A stretch of 64,000 nt of DNA from Oxalobacter aliiformigenes (GTDB taxonomy: Bacteria > Pseudomonadota > Gammaproteobacteria > Burkholderiales > Burkholderiaceae_D): assembly GCF_027116575.1 (NCBI RefSeq), contig NZ_CP098252.1:1984001-2048000 (forward strand), read 5' to 3'. The translations under genes and the position numbers were made by a program. The stretch's first letter is position 1, and every line of letters begins with the position of its first letter. This document shows positions 36,999 through 59,552 of this stretch, piece by piece. Under the pieces are notes generated by a model. That model was not told the DNA's origin. It ran no database searches and worked only from the letters and a program-made list of their open reading frames with translations.

Positions 36999-39429
36999 TC
37001 AGGTACGCAATTTTGCACCCAAATCTTTTTCGACTGCAGCGACAAATGCACTGATGGCAGCTTCCACAACTTCATCCTGCAGAGTTCCATTGATATCTTG
37101 CAGAGTGAACCGGAATGCAAGACTCTTTTCATTGACCCCAAGGCCTTTTCCACGATAATCATCAAACAAAACAACGGTTTGCATGATATGGCAGAGAGGG
37201 TTATTATCTTTTTCCCCGTAAAATCTGTCAATGATTTCTTGAACCGGCATGGAAGAATCCACAACCAGCGCGATATCCCGGATGACCGGCTGATAACGCG
37301 ATATTTCCTGATAGACAGGAACATTGACTGCGCAAAGCGCGCTCACATCCACTTCAAACAATACAGGAGCATGCGGCAAATCATATTTGTGTTGCCATGA
37401 CGGATGCAATTCACCGATTATCCCGATTTCCCGACCGTTCAGTTCTAGGCGTGCACAGCGACCGGGATGCAATGCCGGATGACTGGTCTTGACAAACCGG
37501 AGCGACACAGGAGCGAACAAAGCCTCAAGATCGGCCTTGACATCATAAAAATCAACCTGCCGGTCAGGCAATCCCCACTGTTCCTCATCCGCCAGACCAT
37601 AGGCAATGGCAGCAAGCCTTTTAGGCTGGTCATATCCTGCAACGCTTGCCGGACCATCCTTTACTTCACTGTTTTTCAGAAACACCGCACCAATTTCAAA
37701 CAGACGGATTCTTGAAAATTTGCGATTCAGGTTGTACCGGACATTGGCTACAAGATTCCCGATCATGGTGGAACGCATGACACTCATCTGGCTGGCAATC
37801 GGATTCAGCAAGCGTATAGGATCTTCATTGCCGGCAAAATCTTTCTCCCATGCCTCTTCAACAAAACTGTAATTGACGACTTCCTGATAATCCAGATCGG
37901 CCATTTGCTGGCGGACAGAAAACAGCGACCGGAAATTTTCCGGTTTGATTCGCATGACATTCGATGCAACGGGAGGGAGTGCCGGAATATTTTCAAACCC
38001 ATAGACACGGGCAATTTCTTCAATCAGATCTTCTTCTATTTCGATATCGAAACGGTAAGACGGCGGAGTCACCGTAAACTCATCGCCATTCTGTACGAAT
38101 GGCAGTTTCAGACGGCTGAAAATATCCGCTATCTGTTCGTTGTTCAATGCAATACCGATGACTTTCTCCGCCCTGAAACGGCGAAGCGTAACGGGTTTGC
38201 GCACAGGCAGATTCACAATCTGGTCATCCACAGGTCCGACCACTGTCTTTCCTTCTGTCCCGCAAATCTGAAGAACCAGTTCGGTAATCCGTTCAATGGT
38301 TTCCACTGTTCTTGCAAAATCGACACCCCGCTCAAAGCGATGGGCGGCATCCGTTGTGAAATTGAACCGGCGGGCACGGCCACGAATGGCATCCGGCCAC
38401 CAGAAAGCGGCTTCAATGAAAATGTTTTCCGTATCCAGGGAAATGGCGGTCCGGTCTCCCCCCATGACCCCCCCCCAGCGACTCCACTCCATTTTCATCG
38501 ACGATGACTCCTACCCAGTCATCGACTTCAACCGTCATTCCGTTGAGAAGTTCGACGGTTTCACCTTTTTCGCCCCAACGGACATTCAATGGACCGGCAA
38601 TCCTGTCGAGATCATAAATGTGATTCGGTTGCCCGCATTCCAGCATGACATAATTGGAAATGTCGACCAATGCCGATACGGAACGCTGACCACTTCTTTC
38701 AAGACGTTGTTTCATCCATTCCGGGGTAGCCGCTTTCGCATTGATATTTCTGATCACCCTGCCCGAAAAACGGCCACACAAATCAGGAGCAAGAATATTC
38801 ACTTCCTGTCTGGCATCAGACGTGACTTTTGCCTTGGCGGCCTCATGAAACGCCAAAGGTGTGCCTGTCAGTGCAGAAACTTCACGTGCGACCCCCAGAA
38901 GCGACAGGCAATCCGCCTTGTTCGGCGTCAGCTTGATGTCGAAAATCGAATCTTCCAGTTGCAGATATTCCCGCAAGTCGCTGCCGACAGGCGCATCTTC
39001 CGGCAGATCCATAATCCCGGAATGATCCTCGGACAATTGCAGTTCCCTGAACGAACACAACATGCCATTCGATTCCACACCGCGCAATTTTCCTTTTTTG
39101 ATCGAAAAGGGTTTGCCGTCTTCACCCGGAGGCAGGACAGCCCCTACCAATGCACACCCCGTTTTCATACCGGGCCGCACATTCGGTGCGCCACACACGA
39201 TATTCAGGATCGTTCCGGTACCGGCATCGACCTGACAAACACTCAACCGGTCGGCATTCGGGTGTTTGGCCACTTCAATAACTTCTGCAACAACGATTTT
39301 CGAAAAAGGTTTCGCGACAGGAATAACCTCTTCCACTTCAAGTCCGGACATTGTCATCAGATGCGCCAGTTCATCCGTCGTCATGTCCGGATCAACCATC
39401 GTTCGAAGCCAGTTTTCAGAAAATTGCAT
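36999..39429 (-). CDS. pheT: Phenylalanyl-tRNA synthetase beta subunit, frameshifted in a G tract
   Basis: PheT is the large subunit that, with PheS, charges tRNA-Phe and edits mischarged tyrosine. Two overlapping frames cover it. 38413-39429 holds the N-terminal part ([20 protein letters not shown], the EMAP/tRNA-binding stretch [20 protein letters not shown]). 36999-38498 holds the rest ([20 protein letters not shown] through the C-terminal ferredoxin-fold anticodon domain, [20 protein letters not shown]). The break falls at nine Gs on the minus strand (38476-38468). With eight Gs the join would read [15 protein letters not shown], as the family requires, giving a normal 809 residues. It is either a sequencing indel, a slippage site or a real mutation. 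It lies between pheS and ihfA. Confidence 0.93.
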
Positions 39430-41873: not shown

Positions 41874-43781
41874 TTACTGCCTGGCCCTGATCTCGTTTTC
41901 CATTCGGACCATCAATTCATCCAAAGCCATGGCGCCCAGATCGACACCGCCACGGGCACGAACAGCGACAGTATTTCCATTTTTCTCCTTATCTCCCACG
42001 ATCAGCAGATAAGGCACTTTATTTACAGAATGATCGCGTATTTTATAGGTAATCTTTTCGTTTCGCAAATCGGCTTCAACCCGGAAACCGGCCTTTTTCA
42101 TCGTTTCGACAACACTTCTTGCATATTCTGCCTGACCATCCGAAATATTCAGGACGACGGCATGTACCGGAGCCAGCCACAAGGGCATCGCACCGGCATG
42201 ATTTTCAATCAGAATGCCGATGAACCGCTCCAGCGAGCCCAGAATGGCCCGGTGAATCATAACCGGAATCTTGCGGGTATTGTCTTCAGCGACATATTCG
42301 GCCCCAAGTCTTGTCGGCATGGAAAAATCGACCTGAATGGTACCGCATTGCCACATCCGGCCAATGGCATCTCTCAAGGTATACTCGATTTTCGGCCCGT
42401 AAAAGGCACCATCCCCCGGAGACAGTTCGAATTCACATCCGGAACGTCTCAGCGACTCGATCAGTGCGTTTTCCGCCTTGTCCCAGGCTTCGTCCGATCC
42501 CACCCGTTTTTCCGGACGGGTCGCGACCTTGTAAATGATATCGGTGAACCCGAAATCCTTATAGACCTTTTTCAACAGATCGGTGAATGCGACACACTCA
42601 TCCAGAATCTGGTCTTCCGTACAGAAAATATGCCCGTCATCCTGCGTGAATCCCCTGACACGCATCATGCCATGAAGAGATCCGGAAGGTTCATTGCGAT
42701 GGCACTGGCCGAATTCTCCATACCGGAGCGGCAATTCACGATAGGAATGCAGGCTGGAACGATAAATCTGGACATGTCCCGGACAATTCATCGGCTTGAT
42801 GGCATAAACACGATTTTCCGACTCCGTCGTAAACATGTTTTCCTTGTAATTGTCCCAGTGCCCCGATTTTTCCCACAGGGAACGATCCAGAATTTGCGGG
42901 CCTTTCACTTCCTGATAGCCATTATCCCGATAGACCTTGCGCATATATTGTTCGACTTGCTGCCAGATCGTCCATCCCTTGGCGTGCCAGAAAACAAGTC
43001 CGGGAGCTTCATCCTGAAAATGGAACAGATCAAGAGCACGCCCCAGACGACGGTGATCACGTTTTTCGGCTTCTTCAAGCATGTGAAGATAAGCATCCTG
43101 ATCTTCCTTCTTCGCCCAGGCAGTGCCATAAATACGCTGAAGCATTTCATTTTTGGAGTCACCCCGCCAGTACGCTCCGGCAACCCGCATCAGCTTGAAC
43201 ACTTTCAGCTTGCCGTTCGCCGGTACATGAGGGCCCCGACACAGATCGGTGAAATCACCGCTTGTATAAAGAGAGACCTCCTCATTTTGGGGAATCGATT
43301 CGATGATTTCCGCCTTGTAATCTTCTCCGATCGACTTGAAGTAGGCCACTGCCTCATCTCTCGGCAACACCTTGCGGATGACGGTTTCATTCTTGCGGGC
43401 AAGCTCCGTCATTTTCTTTTCGATCGCCTGCAAATCTTCCGGAGTAAAGGGACGTTTATAGGAAAAATCGTAGTAAAAACCGTTTTCAATGACCGGCCCG
43501 ATCGTCACCTGGGCATCCGGGAACAACTGTTTGACTGCATAAGCCAGCAAATGGGCCGTCGAGTGACGCAAAATATCGACTCCATCGGAATCCCGATCGG
43601 TAATGATCGACAGATCGGCATCCCTGTCGATGACATAGGAAGTATCGACCAGTTTATTGTCCACCTTACCTGCCAGGGCCGCCTTGGCCAAACCGCTACC
43701 GATAGAGGATGCCACTTCCGCAACCGTTACCGGCTTGCTGAATTCCCGTTTCGAACCGTCGGGAAGCCGAACTGAAATCAT
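41874..43781 (-). CDS. thrS: Threonyl-tRNA synthetase
   Basis: ThrS charges tRNA-Thr and edits serine. From the ATG at 43781 (GGAG 6 nt upstream) it has 635 residues beginning [20 protein letters not shown], the TGS domain. The editing domain has [19 protein letters not shown]. The class II core has the zinc ligands in [21 protein letters not shown] and PVHAVVLNI. It heads the thrS-infC-rpmI-rplT-pheS-pheT-ihfA-merR operon. A GATAAAATATTATA stretch about 130 nt upstream on the minus strand may be its -10 region. An upstream extension of 28 codons is not used. Confidence 0.97.
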
Positions 43782-44824
43782 CTTGATCTCCAAAACCAAC
43801 ACAAAAAGACGGCCCACGACCGCCTGCTCACAAAGAAAAAACGCGGAACGGCAACATCCGGACAATCCGGAGATACAGACAAGACACCCGTCCGCGAGAA
43901 ATATAATATTTTATCGCATTTGGCCCCAAACGGAGCACAAAGAGAAACGAAAAGCCCGAAACCCGCCACAATCCGGACCGAAACCGGATAAAAACACCAT
44001 CTGACGGAAAAACGGAATGGATGAATACGCACCGGCCATCCCCCGCAAACACACATGACCGCCATGACGGAACCATCCACACCGCCCCGCCATTCGACAC
44101 ATGCACCAACCCGTACATCCATCGCACGCGCCCATCCGCATGCCCTCTGGCTATGGCTATGGTTATGGCTATGGTTTGGTTCACGAAGCATGGCACCGTC
44201 ACCCGACCCGCCATGCACGGGAAACCGGACCGCCCCGGGATACGATCCGTGCAACCGAACCATCACGAACCGCAAGTCCGCATCCAGGATTTCAGGATAG
44301 CCTGAAACAACCGGCTGACCCCGTCTCCGGCAATACGGCAAGAAAAAGCCGGTTCACCCGGAACGCTTTCCGGAATTTTGCCCGCAACCCATTGTGTATG
44401 GGCCATAAATGGCAACAGACAGCACGGAAGAAAACGGCATGGTGCGCCTGCGGCCGGAAAGGAAAAGAGACACCCCCCCACAAGGAGTGGTGGAAAAAGA
44501 CAGAAAAAAGCCCGGGTGGCGGAACCATTCGAAGTGTTGTGTGAAAAACACACCGGCAGAAGCCGGCCAATATCCGGGAAAAAGTATTAGCGGACCTGAC
44601 CTTGTCTGCCGATACCACAGAAAGTACCGCCAACTCTATCAGAAATCAGGGAAAAACAGAAACGTCCCGGCGGCCTCCCGCCATGAACGTCCCCCGCATC
44701 CCGAGAAAGCTTGAAGAAAAAACACAATAAAAACAACATCCTGCAAATACATGACGTCCATTAATACTTTTTAACAGACTCAGGTTGCCGGAGAGAGCCG
44801 GCCAAACAATTAAAGAGGACGCAA
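43782..44824. other. 1.04-kb gap between thrS and the autotransporter, no supported gene
   Basis: This stretch has higher C content and different base use from its flanks. It contains several short open frames, none with a recognisable family. The left end must hold the thrS promoter and leader. The right end holds the autotransporter promoter and ribosome site (GAGGAC before ATG 44825), with a small GCCGG/CCGGC hairpin just upstream. A short GGCTAT repeat lies in the middle. It may be a decayed coding region, but I cannot name one. Confidence 0.5.
44149..44172 (+). repeat. Short tandem GG(C/T)TAT repeat
   Basis: Four consecutive 6-base units (ggctat, ggctat, ggttat, ggctat) lie in the gap before the autotransporter. 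They are too few and too imperfect to prove slippage-driven variation. Confidence 0.6.
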
Positions 44825-47800
44825 ATGAACAGGATATTCAAGGTAGTGTGGAACGAAATACGTGGTTCCTGGATGGTATGCGACGAGAACCGGGTAGCAC
44901 GGGGCAAGACGAAAAGCGTCAAGGCAGCCGTTGTGGTAGCGTCTGTTGCGGCCATGATGGGATTGTCCGGCATGGCAATGGCTCAGGAACAGACCGTTAC
45001 GAAAAAAATGGTCGAAAATGAAACCTTTGAAAACATCAATAAAACAGAAACCTCCAATTATCCATTACAGGCGATAGTATCTGCCACAAACGCGGATGCT
45101 TCCGCCTTGACAGTCAGTGGCTCCACATTTCAAAACAACCGGATGACGCTGGACAGTACCAGTGGCAATCCGGCAGCTGTGGCCGTGGCGGCGTCAGGTA
45201 TCGATGTAACGGTCAGCGGCTCGACCTTTACAAACAATGCCGTGTCGGTGGCAGCGGGCGGCAGTGACGGCAACGGTATTTACGGGTCCGCGATAGGTGT
45301 CAATACAGGCAACCTGACAGTGACGGGATCGAACTTTACGGGAAATACCGCCAGCAGCAAACGCCAGACACAAGGTTCGGCCATTTATCAGTCGGCCGGG
45401 CAAATCAATATCTCCGGTTCGGATTTTGTGAACAATGCCGGTAATTCGGCAGCTGGCGGTAACGTCACGGGAGGCGCCGTTTCGCTCTGGGGTGTCAGCG
45501 GCACGATTGACAATGCGCGCTTTGAAGGCAACACCGCATCCATTGAAAACGTCAGTGTGAGTGATGAAGCGGTATATGGCGGTGCGGTATATACCCGAAG
45601 CGGCATATGGGGCGGAGAAAAAAACACGCAGTTGACGGTTTCGAATTCAACGTTCACAGAAAACAGGGCGACAGGCAGTGCGGATGCAAAAGGCGGCGCG
45701 ATTTACGCCAAGGGTGACCCGGACAGCGATTTCAGCCACGCACTGAACGTGGAAAACAGCACGTTTGAAAAGAACCATGCCGATACGCAAGGTGGCGCAA
45801 TCTATGCACTGGATACGACCACAACCATCAGCGGGAAATCATCCTTTACCGGCAATACGGCTCAAAACGGCGGTGCCATCTACAATGACAAGGGTACACT
45901 CGTGGTCCAAGACGGCGTCAAATTCCAAGAAAATTTCTCAACTGCACAAAACTACGGCGGCGGTGCGATCTACAACAACGGAGGCAATATCACGATCGGT
46001 AACGATGTGCAATTTGTCGGGAACGGGCTGAACCAACCAGTAACGGATTCAGATAATCGCGAGATGCGTTCGGCAGGCGGTGCGATTGCCTCATGGAATG
46101 CAGGTTCTCTTGAAATCGGTGAAAACGTCGTCTTTGAAAACAATGGCTATAATTCATCGGGTAATGCTGCATGGGCCTCCGGTGGCGCCATTTATCTGGA
46201 TACAGATGGTACCAAAGTAACGGAAATGAACATCGGTACCGGTACCCGCTTTTCAGGCAATGTAGCCGGCTCTCTGGGTGGCGCGATTTATGCCGGAGAT
46301 TCCAAAACGGAAATCTCGGGAACGACTTTTGAAAACAACAAGGCGGGCAATTGGGGCGGTGCCGTGTTTGCCGGCCAATACTTTGTACTCAACGATCACA
46401 GTGTGACGATTTCCGGTTCGCAATTCAACGGGAATGAAGCCGGAAATTACGGTGGCGCCATCGCTTCGCAATACACGGTACTGAACGTGAAAGATACGGT
46501 GTTTAGCGATAACAAGGCGGGTATTGATGGCGGCGCACTGCATATCACCGGTAGTGAAGAAGCAGGATATGCAGCGTCGGCAACTATTGAGAATGTCCGT
46601 TTTGATCATAATGTCGCCGGAAACAACGGCGGTGCCATTTACAATACCGCCAACAGCGAAATCACCTTTACCGGGACCAACACATTCAGTGGCAATACCG
46701 CCAATGGCATTGCCAACGACATCCACAATGCCGGCACGATCACAGTCGCATCCGGGACGACCACACTGGACGGTGGCATTACCGGTGACGGTACAGTCGA
46801 TATTGACGGAGGCAAACTGGTCGCCCCGACCATCCACGCCAATGCCAACGCCATCAACCTGAAATCCGGCACCTTGCAAACCGGCTCGGAACAGGTCATG
46901 AAAACCGGTCTGAATGCGGAAGGAACGATAACCGATGCAAGCGGCCTGAAAGAAGATGCCAAAGTAGCATACACCGGCGGCGAACTGGCGTTGACCGACG
47001 CGAAATACAATCTGGACTATGCCAAATCGGTCGCCGGATACATCAATAATGATGGTGCGACAGCCGTAACCATGCTGGGTGAGCTGGTCGGACAGACGGG
47101 TCCGGTCACAGTCAGCGATCTGGAGGATACCGGAGTGGTACTGGCGACAGAAGATATCGTCGCCAATGAAGACAACAAGACTGGTCTGGTTATCGGTATC
47201 AAAGATGTCTCCGGACTGGATAATATCAACGGCAACAACTACACCGACGCCGAAACCCACAACAACAATCTGGGTGCCAAAACCCTGACACTGGCAAATG
47301 GCGGCGAAGCAGTACTGGTGACAAGTGGCAAAACGCTGACCCTGATCGGAGACGGAACCGATCTCATCAGGACGGACGACGGCAGCGTGAATGTCGATAT
47401 CGGGCATGACGGCCAGAGCGGGACTCTGAATCTGGGAACCGACAGCGCCGCCAACGGCGGGACATTGAGCGGTACGGTGACGGTCAGTGAAACCGGTACG
47501 GTCAATGTCAATGGTGCGGAATATGGCGTCAATGGCAAGCTCGACGTATCCGGAACTGTCAACGTCAACAATGGCGCAACACTGAACACCGATACCGTGA
47601 CCCTGAATAACAGCGGTACCGTCAATGTAGCCGGCACCATGAAGGCCGATACCCTGACAGCAGCAAAGGAAACAACCATCAACGTCGGCGACAGCACATC
47701 GGCAGGCAGCCTGTCGGCAAGTTCCCTGAGTCTGAACGGCGGCATGATGTTTCTGGATCCGGACTGGAGACCGGGCATCGGTATAGAAGGTGCATCGCGG

Positions 47801-49501
47801 GCAGCATTCGGTTCATTGCCAAACGGGATTGACGGTTCCCTTGTCGTCGGACGGAACTCACTGGCCGTACTGGGCGATACCACAACAGACTGGGCACAAA
47901 ACGAATTCGCCCGGAGCGGAAGAAACTGGGGCCCCGGCGACATCACCGCCGCCCTGGCCATCCAGGCACCCCAGACACTGAGTGCTGCCGATAATGGAGC
48001 CATCGTCGTGGATGGTTCGCTGACGGCACCCTCGCAAACTGTTACGCCAAACAGCGTCAGATTCGCCGACAACTCCATGCTCATCGTCGATGCCGCCGGC
48101 ATCGGCAGTGAAGCCGCGATCACCGGGAATGGTACAAGCCAAGCGACAGTGGCAGACAGCGCCGCCCTGCACATCGCCAACGCCAGAAACGGACAGGAAA
48201 TCGGCATCCTGAGAGGCTTTACTTCCGATAAAGCCATCAATGGCTGGCAGGGAGACAACCTGACCTCCAGTGACGCCATGATCTCCCTGAATGTGACAGA
48301 AGACGGCAGCAACGGCAACGTCACCGTTGCGGCAACCGCCAACAACGCCGCCGACATCTTCCCGGGAGCCATGCCCGTCAGCACCATGAACGCCATCTGG
48401 CAAAACGGCGAAAACGACGTCGATTCTGCCAACGGAGGCATCGCCTTCCTCTCCAGAGCGGCAGACAACCGGTACCTCAATCATCAGGACGCCGTCCGTA
48501 CGATCAATGGCGCCGCCCAGATGGCCGTTGCCGCCGGCGTCCAGCTCTCCAACCTGCAAGCGCTGGACAGCGTCACCGAAGCCCTGGAAAACCATGTCAG
48601 CCTGACCGCCAACACGCAGCAGGCCAATGCGCCACGCCTGCATGACGAAGGCGCCGACCTGTGGGCCGCCATGCTCTACCGGCATGATAGCGGAGACGGC
48701 ATGAAATCGGGAAGCTTCAACGCCGACATCAACAACAACTTCGGCGGCCTCATCGTCGGCAGCGACTACACCTGGAAACTGGCCGGAGACACCCAAACCC
48801 GCGTCGGCGCCGCATTATCCATCGGCAAAGGCGACAGCCACAGCGACGGAGACTACAACTACAGCAAAAACGACTACGACACCTACGGCATCAACCTCTA
48901 TGGCAGCTGGAACAACCGGAACGTCAATATCATGGCGGACATCGGTTACATGAAAGGAGACAACGAAGTCGAACAGCACCTCTCCCAAAACCTCGGCGGC
49001 AAACTGAAAGCCGACGTCGACACCGAAATGTGGACGGCCGGCATCAAGGGAGAATACCGTATCCGGACCAGTGCGCTGGACATCTCCCCCCATCTGGGAG
49101 TACGGTACACCCACCTCAAGACCGACAGCTTCAGCAGCCGCAACACCCTGGGAACCGTCTTCAATACAGACAGCGAAAGCTACAACATCTGGCAGATGCC
49201 ACTTGGCGTCACCCTGAGCAAGGACTACAAGTCCGCCAGCGGCTGGACCATCAAACCGAAATTCGACTTCAGCGTCATCGGAGCGGCCGGAGACACGGAA
49301 GCCGAAACCCGGGTACGGGTACCGGGAGTCAATGCGGCCGACAACGCCAGCGCCGACATGATGGACAGCGTCAGCTTCAGAGGCATCGTCGGCGTGGAAA
49401 TGCAGAAAGACGCCACCAGCGTCGGCCTGTCCGCAGGATACCAGCGATCTGCCACGATGAATTCCACGGGCTTCATGCTGAATATCGGCCATCACTTCTG
49501 A
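44825..49501 (+). CDS. Type V autotransporter with extended signal peptide and Pmp-like FxxN/GGAI repeats
   Basis: The 1558-residue product is a surface or secreted adhesin-like autotransporter. It opens with an extended signal peptide region (MNRIFKVVWNEIRGSWMVCD, residues 1-31) and a hydrophobic core ending AMA at about 53. Residues 95-625 carry about 17 FxxN motifs (e.g. STFEKNHADTQGGAIY) and about 13 GGA(I/V/L) motifs. This is the pattern of chlamydial polymorphic membrane proteins and of right-handed beta-helices. Residues about 700-1270 are Thr/Gly/Asn-rich passenger. Residues about 1290-1558 are a beta-barrel ending FMLNIGHHF with the aromatic terminal residue. The 3' part uses more C-ending codons than the repeat part. 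Ligand unknown. A terminator follows. Confidence 0.93.
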   Translation: MNRIFKVVWNEIRGSWMVCDENRVARGKTKSVKAAVVVASVAAMMGLSGMAMAQEQTVTKKMVENETFENINKTETSNYPLQAIVSATNADASALTVSGSTFQNNRMTLDSTSGNPAAVAVAASGIDVTVSGSTFTNNAVSVAAGGSDGNGIYGSAIGVNTGNLTVTGSNFTGNTASSKRQTQGSAIYQSAGQINISGSDFVNNAGNSAAGGNVTGGAVSLWGVSGTIDNARFEGNTASIENVSVSDEAVYGGAVYTRSGIWGGEKNTQLTVSNSTFTENRATGSADAKGGAIYAKGDPDSDFSHALNVENSTFEKNHADTQGGAIYALDTTTTISGKSSFTGNTAQNGGAIYNDKGTLVVQDGVKFQENFSTAQNYGGGAIYNNGGNITIGNDVQFVGNGLNQPVTDSDNREMRSAGGAIASWNAGSLEIGENVVFENNGYNSSGNAAWASGGAIYLDTDGTKVTEMNIGTGTRFSGNVAGSLGGAIYAGDSKTEISGTTFENNKAGNWGGAVFAGQYFVLNDHSVTISGSQFNGNEAGNYGGAIASQYTVLNVKDTVFSDNKAGIDGGALHITGSEEAGYAASATIENVRFDHNVAGNNGGAIYNTANSEITFTGTNTFSGNTANGIANDIHNAGTITVASGTTTLDGGITGDGTVDIDGGKLVAPTIHANANAINLKSGTLQTGSEQVMKTGLNAEGTITDASGLKEDAKVAYTGGELALTDAKYNLDYAKSVAGYINNDGATAVTMLGELVGQTGPVTVSDLEDTGVVLATEDIVANEDNKTGLVIGIKDVSGLDNINGNNYTDAETHNNNLGAKTLTLANGGEAVLVTSGKTLTLIGDGTDLIRTDDGSVNVDIGHDGQSGTLNLGTDSAANGGTLSGTVTVSETGTVNVNGAEYGVNGKLDVSGTVNVNNGATLNTDTVTLNNSGTVNVAGTMKADTLTAAKETTINVGDSTSAGSLSASSLSLNGGMMFLDPDWRPGIGIEGASRAAFGSLPNGIDGSLVVGRNSLAVLGDTTTDWAQNEFARSGRNWGPGDITAALAIQAPQTLSAADNGAIVVDGSLTAPSQTVTPNSVRFADNSMLIVDAAGIGSEAAITGNGTSQATVADSAALHIANARNGQEIGILRGFTSDKAINGWQGDNLTSSDAMISLNVTEDGSNGNVTVAATANNAADIFPGAMPVSTMNAIWQNGENDVDSANGGIAFLSRAADNRYLNHQDAVRTINGAAQMAVAAGVQLSNLQALDSVTEALENHVSLTANTQQANAPRLHDEGADLWAAMLYRHDSGDGMKSGSFNADINNNFGGLIVGSDYTWKLAGDTQTRVGAALSIGKGDSHSDGDYNYSKNDYDTYGINLYGSWNNRNVNIMADIGYMKGDNEVEQHLSQNLGGKLKADVDTEMWTAGIKGEYRIRTSALDISPHLGVRYTHLKTDSFSSRNTLGTVFNTDSESYNIWQMPLGVTLSKDYKSASGWTIKPKFDFSVIGAAGDTEAETRVRVPGVNAADNASADMMDSVSFRGIVGVEMQKDATSVGLSAGYQRSATMNSTGFMLNIGHHF

Positions 49502-49548
49502 AAAACCATACACGCACGGATTTCCGTCCGGTGCGGGTGGGTTTGCAT

Positions 49549-49583
49549 AAAAAGGGCGCCTCCCGAAAGGGGGCGCCCTTTTT
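49549..49583. terminator. Bidirectional terminator after the autotransporter
   Basis: AAAAAGGGCGCC, an 11-base loop, then GGCGCCCTTTTT form a strong stem. On the minus strand the same stem directly follows the stop of the UvrA fragment, so it can serve both. Confidence 0.88.
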
Positions 49584-49785
49584 ACGGGACCCTGTCCGTT
49601 TCCGGTAGCGGAATGTACGGGGATTGCCGTTTCTTTCGCGGCTTCAGCATGGCGCCCGGGTATTTCCCGGTAACGCTGACCGGATTCACGGCAATGTCTT
49701 CCGGTATCCCGGCGGCGATGATCCGCCCTCCTCCACCTCCTCCTTTCGGGCCAAGGTCAATTATCCAGTCCGCTGTCTTGATGTT
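49582..49785 (-). pseudogene. uvrA: Orphan C-terminal fragment of UvrA
   Basis: The minus strand has a 67-codon open frame without a start codon. From its second codon it reads [20 protein letters not shown], then [14 protein letters not shown] and [18 protein letters not shown], ending in TAA at 49584. This is the C-terminal end of the excinuclease ABC subunit A, whose consensus is close to [16 protein letters not shown] then IVAxGTPE. The match begins abruptly after a TGA and one Asn codon, at the point where the full protein would read EHNLDV. It has two non-consensus changes (E to K, acidic/small to G). No ATPase domain is present, so it cannot function. It looks like a leftover from duplication or rearrangement. 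Confidence 0.85.
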
Positions 49786-49822
49786 TCATGGAGGCTGAAG
49801 GGATGATCGGGAAATGAGAAAC

Positions 49823-49851
49823 AAAAAAGCACACTGAAAAGTGTGCTTTTT
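49823..49851. terminator. Terminator downstream of tRNA-Val
   Basis: AAAAAAGCACACT, a 3-4-base loop, then AGTGTGCTTTTT form a near-perfect stem 37 nt after the 3' end of the tRNA on the minus strand. It also faces the UvrA fragment side. Confidence 0.85.
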
Positions 49852-49887
49852 CATGCTATACCATTTCGATAATGGCAACAGGAATTC

Positions 49888-49964
49888 TGGTAGGCACGAT
49901 TGGACTCGAACCAACGACCCCTACCATGTCAAGGTAGTGCTCTAACCAGCTGAGCTACGCGCCT
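49888..49964 (-). tRNA. tRNA-Val (anticodon GAC)
   Basis: The 77-nt minus-strand sequence folds as a tRNA. The 7-bp acceptor stem is AGGCGCG/CGTGCCT with one G-T pair, and the D arm has AGCTCAGCTGGTTAGAGC. The anticodon stem is CTACC/GGTAG with loop TTGACAT (anticodon GAC), and the T arm has GGTTCGAGTCC. The CCA end is encoded. A TATAAT box lies 9 nt upstream. Confidence 0.97.
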
Positions 49965-49973
49965 AAAGACGTT

Positions 49974-49979
49974 ATTATA
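49974..49979 (-). promoter_or_regulatory. -10 box of tRNA-Val
   Basis: A perfect TATAAT on the minus strand lies 9 nt before the 5' end of the tRNA. No good TTGACA-like -35 is seen at 16-18 bases. Confidence 0.55.
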
Positions 49980-51088
49980 ACCTAAAAAAATCAGACTGGG
50001 CTACATTTTCAATATAACTACAGCAAAAAAACAACTCATCATACAGCCTGCCCCGTCATTTCAGGCGTCAGAGAATGCAAGAGTCATGCAAAATCAGGCG
50101 TATAACCATGATATTCAGAACAGTGAATTCGCAGCTCCGGTCGCAACTGTCAGCAATTTTTCAGAATCGCTTTCAATCTCCTGAAACAAGACCGAACCCG
50201 ACAAATGACATCCTGACAGACAGCATGCCTGTTTTTGATACAGACCTCGCCAACAGACAGGATTTCCAAATGATGAAAACCGGTCGATGCTCCCTTGAGC
50301 ATTGTGTACATCGTGGCAGGTTTATGACTTTTCCCTGTAATGACTCATGATTTATCAACCTGCATTCGATCACCTCATCGATTCTCTGCTCACAGGGCAA
50401 TTCTTTCCTGCGGCAATATAGGCCACCTTGAATCGGCACTGGCATAAACCGCTATGAAACCACGACTATACGGAAAATTTATGAGTCCCGTGTTTTCTCG
50501 TTTCAGCAATAGCTCAGTCCCCGGGCCCTCCGGTTCATACCCGAAAATATCCTGTCAAAGCAAGTCTGTGCAAAAACTGACAGATCAAACGACATTCGGC
50601 TGCCGATGATGTTGCCAGAACAATCACTGAATAACAGACGTCACGAAAAGCATGGAAAATTTTCTGACTGCATCGTGAATTTCATCACTTGCATCAGGTT
50701 TTTGCAAAAGCTCACTGCCGGAAAACATTGGTATCGCCAATTTCTCAAAAAACATGTAACGGCTTCCGGATGTCGCTATCTTTCAAGTTTCGCCATTTTC
50801 CTCAATCAGCGGGACAAGAATTTTTTCGGGCTTCTCCCGGATATTCAGCTCCGGATCGTGACCGGTCAATGTCACTGTTTGTATTGAAAGACCATTTACT
50901 CTCATATTGAGACAGCATGAATCCCCCTCCTTTACAGATCTGAAAAATTCACGATACATCAAATTTTGCGCATTCATAATCGTTTTCGGTGAAATCCGGT
51001 TTATAGTGTTGAGTGACAGAAAAATTGTTCCGTTCTGAATCTGTTTCAGTCTTTTCTCCCGTCGATTGTTTTTTATTTACGGTTTGCC
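49980..51088. other. 1.1-kb gap between tRNA-Val and pgi, no supported gene
   Basis: All frames are broken by stops and none of the short open frames shows a known motif. The stretch is more A/T-rich than the neighbouring genes and has no strong repeats. The right end must contain the pgi promoter. With the adjacent UvrA fragment and tRNA it may be a site of past insertion and decay; that is inference. Confidence 0.6.
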
Positions 51089-59526: not shown

Positions 59527-59552
59527 TAACATACATTCATGATTGTATGTTA
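59527..59552. promoter_or_regulatory. AcrR-type operator between acrR and acrA
   Basis: TAACATACA, a central TCATGA-containing core, and TGTATGTTA form a 26-bp inverted repeat broken by only one non-pairing position in each arm. E. coli AcrR binds TACATACATT...AATGTATGTA, nearly the same arms. On the plus strand CTAACA and TTAGAT flank the repeat and may be the acrA -35/-10, so bound repressor would block the promoter. A TATAAT on the minus strand (59500-59495) may serve acrR. Confidence 0.85.

Follow-up and report, generated by a model that had tools for sequence, protein, structure and literature searches.

An orphaned uvrA 3′ end between an autotransporter gene and tRNA-Val in Oxalobacter aliiformigenes

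Introduction

Chromosomal rearrangements and partial duplications can leave partial pseudogenes behind, which form a general class. A functional UvrA protein has two ABC ATPase domains together with UvrB-binding and zinc regions.

The Oxalobacter species, O. aliiformigenes with its type strain Va3 among them, have been described (PMC9812493); uvrA, autotransporters and pseudogenes are not mentioned in the main text of that description. A literature search for a uvrA gene fragment at tRNA-Val found none.

Here we describe such a fragment. The window, meaning the whole stretch of DNA analysed, is 64,000 nucleotides long, and the features around the fragment are as follows.

41874..43781, minus strand: thrS, left flank of the insertion (NCBIfam TIGR00418)
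43853..49887, no strand: DNA from thrS to tRNA-Val without convincing homology to the gaps of sister genomes (edges approximate)
44825..49501, plus strand: type V autotransporter, 1558 aa (Pfam ESPR, Chlam_PMP repeats, Autotransporter beta-domain)
49548..49584, no strand: bidirectional terminator-like hairpin common to the autotransporter (plus) and the fragment (minus) (inverted repeat I8, fold z)
49582..49785, minus strand: 67-codon open frame holding the fragment, its last 14 codons probably read-through past the inferred former stop
49619..49783, minus strand: uvrA 3′-end fragment, comprising the last ~45-53 codons and a few bases beyond the former stop (blastn, NCBIfam)
49821..49854, minus strand: terminator-like hairpin after tRNA-Val (fold z -5.0)
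49888..49964, minus strand: tRNA-Val(gac) (ARAGORN, Rfam)

Results

The frame at 49785..49582 on the minus strand runs for 67 codons to a TAA, with an in-frame TGA directly 5′ of it. An earlier note on this DNA had read it as a start-less UvrA end that begins abruptly in mid-protein, and the comparisons bear this out. A protein search finds UvrA, at the C-terminal end only: NCBIfam NF001503 matches with E 5.4e-14 at profile positions 896-941 of 943 (about the last 45 codons), TIGR00630 with E 4.1e-10, likewise over only the last ~31-46 model positions, and NF001885 weakly (1.1e-4). Pfam returned no match for the frame. The earliest in-frame start codons are a GTG at residue 33 and an ATG at residue 46, and none lies ahead of the UvrA match.

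At the DNA level, the fragment is 70% to 77% identical to the uvrA genes of relatives, and its longest match, to G006 uvrA, covers 49619..49783 (blastn, 70.5% over 166 columns). Among the relatives compared, homology ceases at 49782-49783. This edge is sharp, since the 25 and 40 bases beyond 49783 align with the uvrA genes of four relatives no better than shuffles do. The identification of the frame as an orphaned 3′ end of uvrA is thereby confirmed at the sequence level. With only profile positions 896-941 of 943 present, the fragment is not a functional UvrA; its significant homology to a parent, in truncated form, is that of a UvrA-derived pseudogene.

Among 16 intact tails, that of P0004 is closest to both the window fragment (P0001) and a second short protein, P0002. 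The margins are narrow (210 vs 205 for P0001, 115 vs 114 for P0002), with P0007 close behind, and the stretch EDIAVNPVS is common to the fragment and P0007 and absent from P0004. P0004 has 957 aa and is 94% identical to UvrA of O. paraformigenes. We infer that it belongs to O. aliiformigenes, and it is likely the parent type of the fragment.

Where P0004 has its stop, the fragment reads CAA, and the frame continues for 13 more codons past the P0004-like end, up to the A-run of the hairpin. As the last 14 residues lie past the stop position of this closest intact tail and end in the A-run, the corresponding codons were probably added to the frame when the stop was lost. Beyond the former stop, the DNA from the fragment to the autotransporter matches the DNA after uvrA in six relatives no better than shuffles (in the best case, 143 of 1000 shuffles reach the score). 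A translated match to G013 and G014 that continued past the stop was rejected on this ground.

P0002, known as a protein sequence only, was the one candidate in a search for proteins of similar length sharing exact words. It has 47 aa and is encoded on another contig, of 871 bp. It carries the fragment's tail past the lost stop, plus Ala where P0004 has Thr, and differs from the fragment at 6 of 46 residues. We read the two as the outcome of a single event, passed down in two lineages or strains that have changed since.

Three of 25 positions that are invariant in 20 UvrA rows are changed in the fragment (E to K, T to I and L to P). When each of the 20 rows was left out in turn, no changes were found except one in G006 and one in P0011; the rows are not independent, some being from the same species. 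Over 45 codons, pN between the window and eight relatives was 0.160-0.224, compared to 0.059-0.198 for intact pairs among those eight. The pN/pS was not clearly raised (0.165/0.719 for window-G006 vs 0.184/0.730 for G006-G005). The changed positions and the absent stop suggest that constraint on the fragment may be relaxed and, because pN/pS is not clearly raised, its decay would be recent or weakly recorded.

The TAA of the frame sits within an arm of the hairpin at 49548-49584, the bidirectional terminator of the autotransporter that the stop abuts in the earlier note. This hairpin folds far better than shuffles (z -5.2) and starts 39 nt downstream of the presumed old stop of uvrA; in G004, a hairpin follows the uvrA stop at ~45 nt, judged by eye. 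A pattern scan found two terminator-like sites with 1.0 expected. Promoter-like sites were at chance level (one found vs 0.6 expected), the single one lying at the fragment edge (49789-49760, minus strand). Rfam gave no RNA family match in the region except the tRNA.

The gap between thrS and tRNA-Val is 6106 bp in the window compared to 430, 371 and 394 bp in G004, G005 and G006, respectively. The extra ~5.7 kb contains the autotransporter, the shared terminator and the uvrA tail, and the gaps of the three sister genomes contain neither the autotransporter nor a uvrA piece. An ancestral uvrA cut at this very spot, which had also been proposed, gains no support from a site that is empty in the sister genomes. 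Convincing homology is lost on the left ~70 bp past the thrS start codon and returns on the right at the tRNA. The order thrS, tRNA-Val, GPI is that of G005, and three O. aliiformigenes proteins (P0133, P0157 and P0166) share 99% identity with the window's GPI; a 97%-identical GPI was also found. Further to the left, pheT (37002-39429, minus strand) is found as two overlapping frames split near a run of nine G at ~38465, and as one 809-aa frame in G006; either the sequence is in error there or this housekeeping gene carries a homopolymer frameshift.

The ~970 bp between thrS and the autotransporter (43853-44824) hold no recognised gene among the ORFs scanned. They have no convincing match in the loci of relatives searched, and a protein-level search of those loci gave none at E 0.01. 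On the other side, the gap between tRNA-Val and GPI (49965-51088, 1.1 kb) is without a gene cluster of 9.6-9.8 kb that G006 and G004 have there. G005 is also without this cluster, so the flanks of the tRNA have varied on both sides. In a search for remnants of the cluster in the window, only the stretch directly before GPI matched G006 convincingly.

Integration at the tRNA, with its 3′ end repeated, was considered and rejected: elsewhere in the window, the tRNA 3′ end and its flank recur exactly over 11 bases at most. Of the ORFs of at least 60 aa, the scan covered 6 of 14 on the stretch from thrS to the autotransporter and 4 of 5 on that from tRNA-Val to GPI; none has a Pfam match above cut-off and none looks like an integrase. 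No recombination signature was found at either edge. Two plasmid records match for ~60 bases each, inside the tRNA. The 30-mer across the junction is absent from the 164 loci searched. Exact patterns of the fragment had no hit in viral contigs, and none of 61 pattern matches there was confirmed as a protein relative.

The autotransporter has the signal region, passenger and beta-barrel of the type V class, given by its ESPR, Chlam_PMP and Autotransporter domains. Matches to it are found in 4 of 13 genus genomes. The G005 relative (71% over residues 1-638) is the gene after gdhA, and the contig ends inside it. G004 has a full gene adjoining a rarA-like gene. In G006, which is O. paraformigenes by its UvrA, the copy next to the rarA-like gene is a broken remnant; it is 59% identical over residues 1256-1558, and gdhA is ~4 kb away. 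Other copies match at 55%, 50% and 49% over longer C-terminal stretches. The G006 remnant (G006:C2:117074-118347) has the C-terminal autotransporter part in two frames.

A uvrA match is found in 12 of the 13 genus genomes, and we tabulated 10 neighbourhoods, leaving out G012 and G013 with their short contigs. In all 10, the convergent neighbour of uvrA is a gene of 659-670 aa on the other strand, with a similar N-terminus. The two stop codons are 3-486 bp apart, with an overlap between the genes in G003 and G007. The G006 neighbour, the only one scanned, has sub-threshold matches to KefC and CPA2 antiporter models. An autotransporter adjoins uvrA in none of the 10; the convergent place at the 3′ flank of uvrA, where the earlier note would look for one, is taken by this gene.

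None of the 30 uvrA matches in the 13 genus genomes is an orphan piece, all lying in frames of at least 741 aa. Across the family, 241 of 245 genomes have a UvrA match, with a few short frames (70, 225, 385, 473 and 495 aa) among the matches listed. For example, a second uvrA end is found in a 225-aa frame (G109:C4:5976-6128) of another family member whose genome also has a full-length match.

In G006 and G004, the autotransporter and uvrA lie 34 and 42 kb apart, in the same order and orientation as in the window, with the autotransporter pointing towards the 3′ end of uvrA. The region between them is collinear in the two genomes except for unmatched stretches, the largest being ~10 kb in G004. 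At E 1e-3, the window matches these intervals in the autotransporter, the uvrA tail (G006 only) and one stretch of 29 bases at 59527; the uvrA tail matched G004 only in a separate search with shorter words, and the comparison covered all but 200 bp of the G004 interval. The collinearity was noticed after the fact.

Discussion

Most likely the fragment is a gene remnant of an ordinary kind, left behind when the DNA was rearranged, and it probably marks a relocation of the autotransporter gene. On balance, we favour its being a relic without function, a partial pseudogene that derives from the uvrA of the host lineage itself and was carried here on a displaced autotransporter-uvrA segment. A segment of this neighbourhood would have been copied or moved into the gap between thrS and tRNA-Val. 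That segment would then have lost ~34-42 kb from its middle, along with the 5′ part of uvrA, with the autotransporter alone staying whole. Flanked by two strong hairpins, lacking a start codon ahead of it and with promoter evidence at chance, the uvrA tail would now be decaying. An intact uvrA presumably remains elsewhere in the genome.

The pattern in the window is the one expected of a displaced copy of the region after loss of its middle, which makes such a block plausible. The earlier suggestion that a block of autotransporter, terminator and uvrA 3′ end moved here thus holds in part: the absence of both pieces from the three sister gaps and the shared order and orientation at 34-42 kb speak for the move, and the block as first written, with the two pieces adjoining, has no counterpart among the 10 uvrA neighbourhoods. 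The left end lends the moved block no support, because the ~970 bp upstream of the autotransporter match none of the DNA upstream of the sister autotransporters.

A fair rival is the independent arrival of the two pieces, which we hold to be possible, if the less probable course. The autotransporter would have been inserted from the gdhA-rarA region, and a uvrA piece of ~165 bp would have been captured separately with its terminator when a break next to tRNA-Val was repaired illegitimately; this terminator would then have come to serve the autotransporter. The failure of the two genes to adjoin in any of the 10 neighbourhoods fits this course, as do the similar spacing of the hairpin from the former stop here (39 nt) and from the uvrA stop in G004 (~45 nt by eye) and the variable surroundings of tRNA-Val between species. 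Nevertheless, it requires two insertions at one spot and leaves the order and orientation in common with G004 and G006 to coincidence.

The two remaining explanations concern the fragment itself. It might be kept for a function, such as a transcribed spacer or a small peptide between the autotransporter and tRNA-Val: the tail frame is open in both P0001 and P0002, pN/pS is not clearly raised and one promoter-like site lies at the fragment edge. We regard this as very unlikely, given that no start codon precedes the UvrA match, that promoter-like sites stay at the chance level, that hairpins stand on both sides (z -5.2 and -5.0), that Rfam matches nothing except the tRNA and that conserved residues are changed. 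We see no sign of function, beyond perhaps the fragment's having supplied the shared hairpin. Alternatively, the contig could be misassembled and the frame be the true end of a uvrA from elsewhere, a doubt that the earlier note itself had raised. This is the least probable explanation of all and very unlikely, because P0002, from another contig, has the same tail past the stop; invariant positions are changed, the stop is absent, and thrS, tRNA-Val and GPI stand in the order of G005.

Returning to the displaced segment, the locus would document an autotransporter that apparently changed place in this lineage alone, in a human-gut oxalate degrader, with the origin of the accompanying piece suggested. 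The fragment serves mainly to mark the rearrangement and to caution against the annotation of a small UvrA protein at this place. More speculatively, and we think this improbable, the thrS/tRNA-Val/GPI region could be a recurrent landing and deletion site where surface-protein genes are brought from afar and core-gene scars are left. If so, scars such as the uvrA tail could trace the spread of autotransporter genes.

Compared to known systems, the insertion resembles genomic islands at tRNA genes in lying directly downstream of tRNA-Val; in contrast to tRNA-integrated islands, it has no integrase among the scanned ORFs, and the window has no exact repeat longer than 11 bases of the 3′ end of the tRNA or its flank. 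The ~45 matching codons correspond to the profile end of UvrA (excinuclease ABC subunit A), whereas ~95% of the protein, the stop and a start codon ahead of the match are missing. The likeness to partial pseudogenes from rearrangement or partial duplication lies in the sharp-edged truncation, the apparent degradation and the absence of the piece from this site in three sister genomes.
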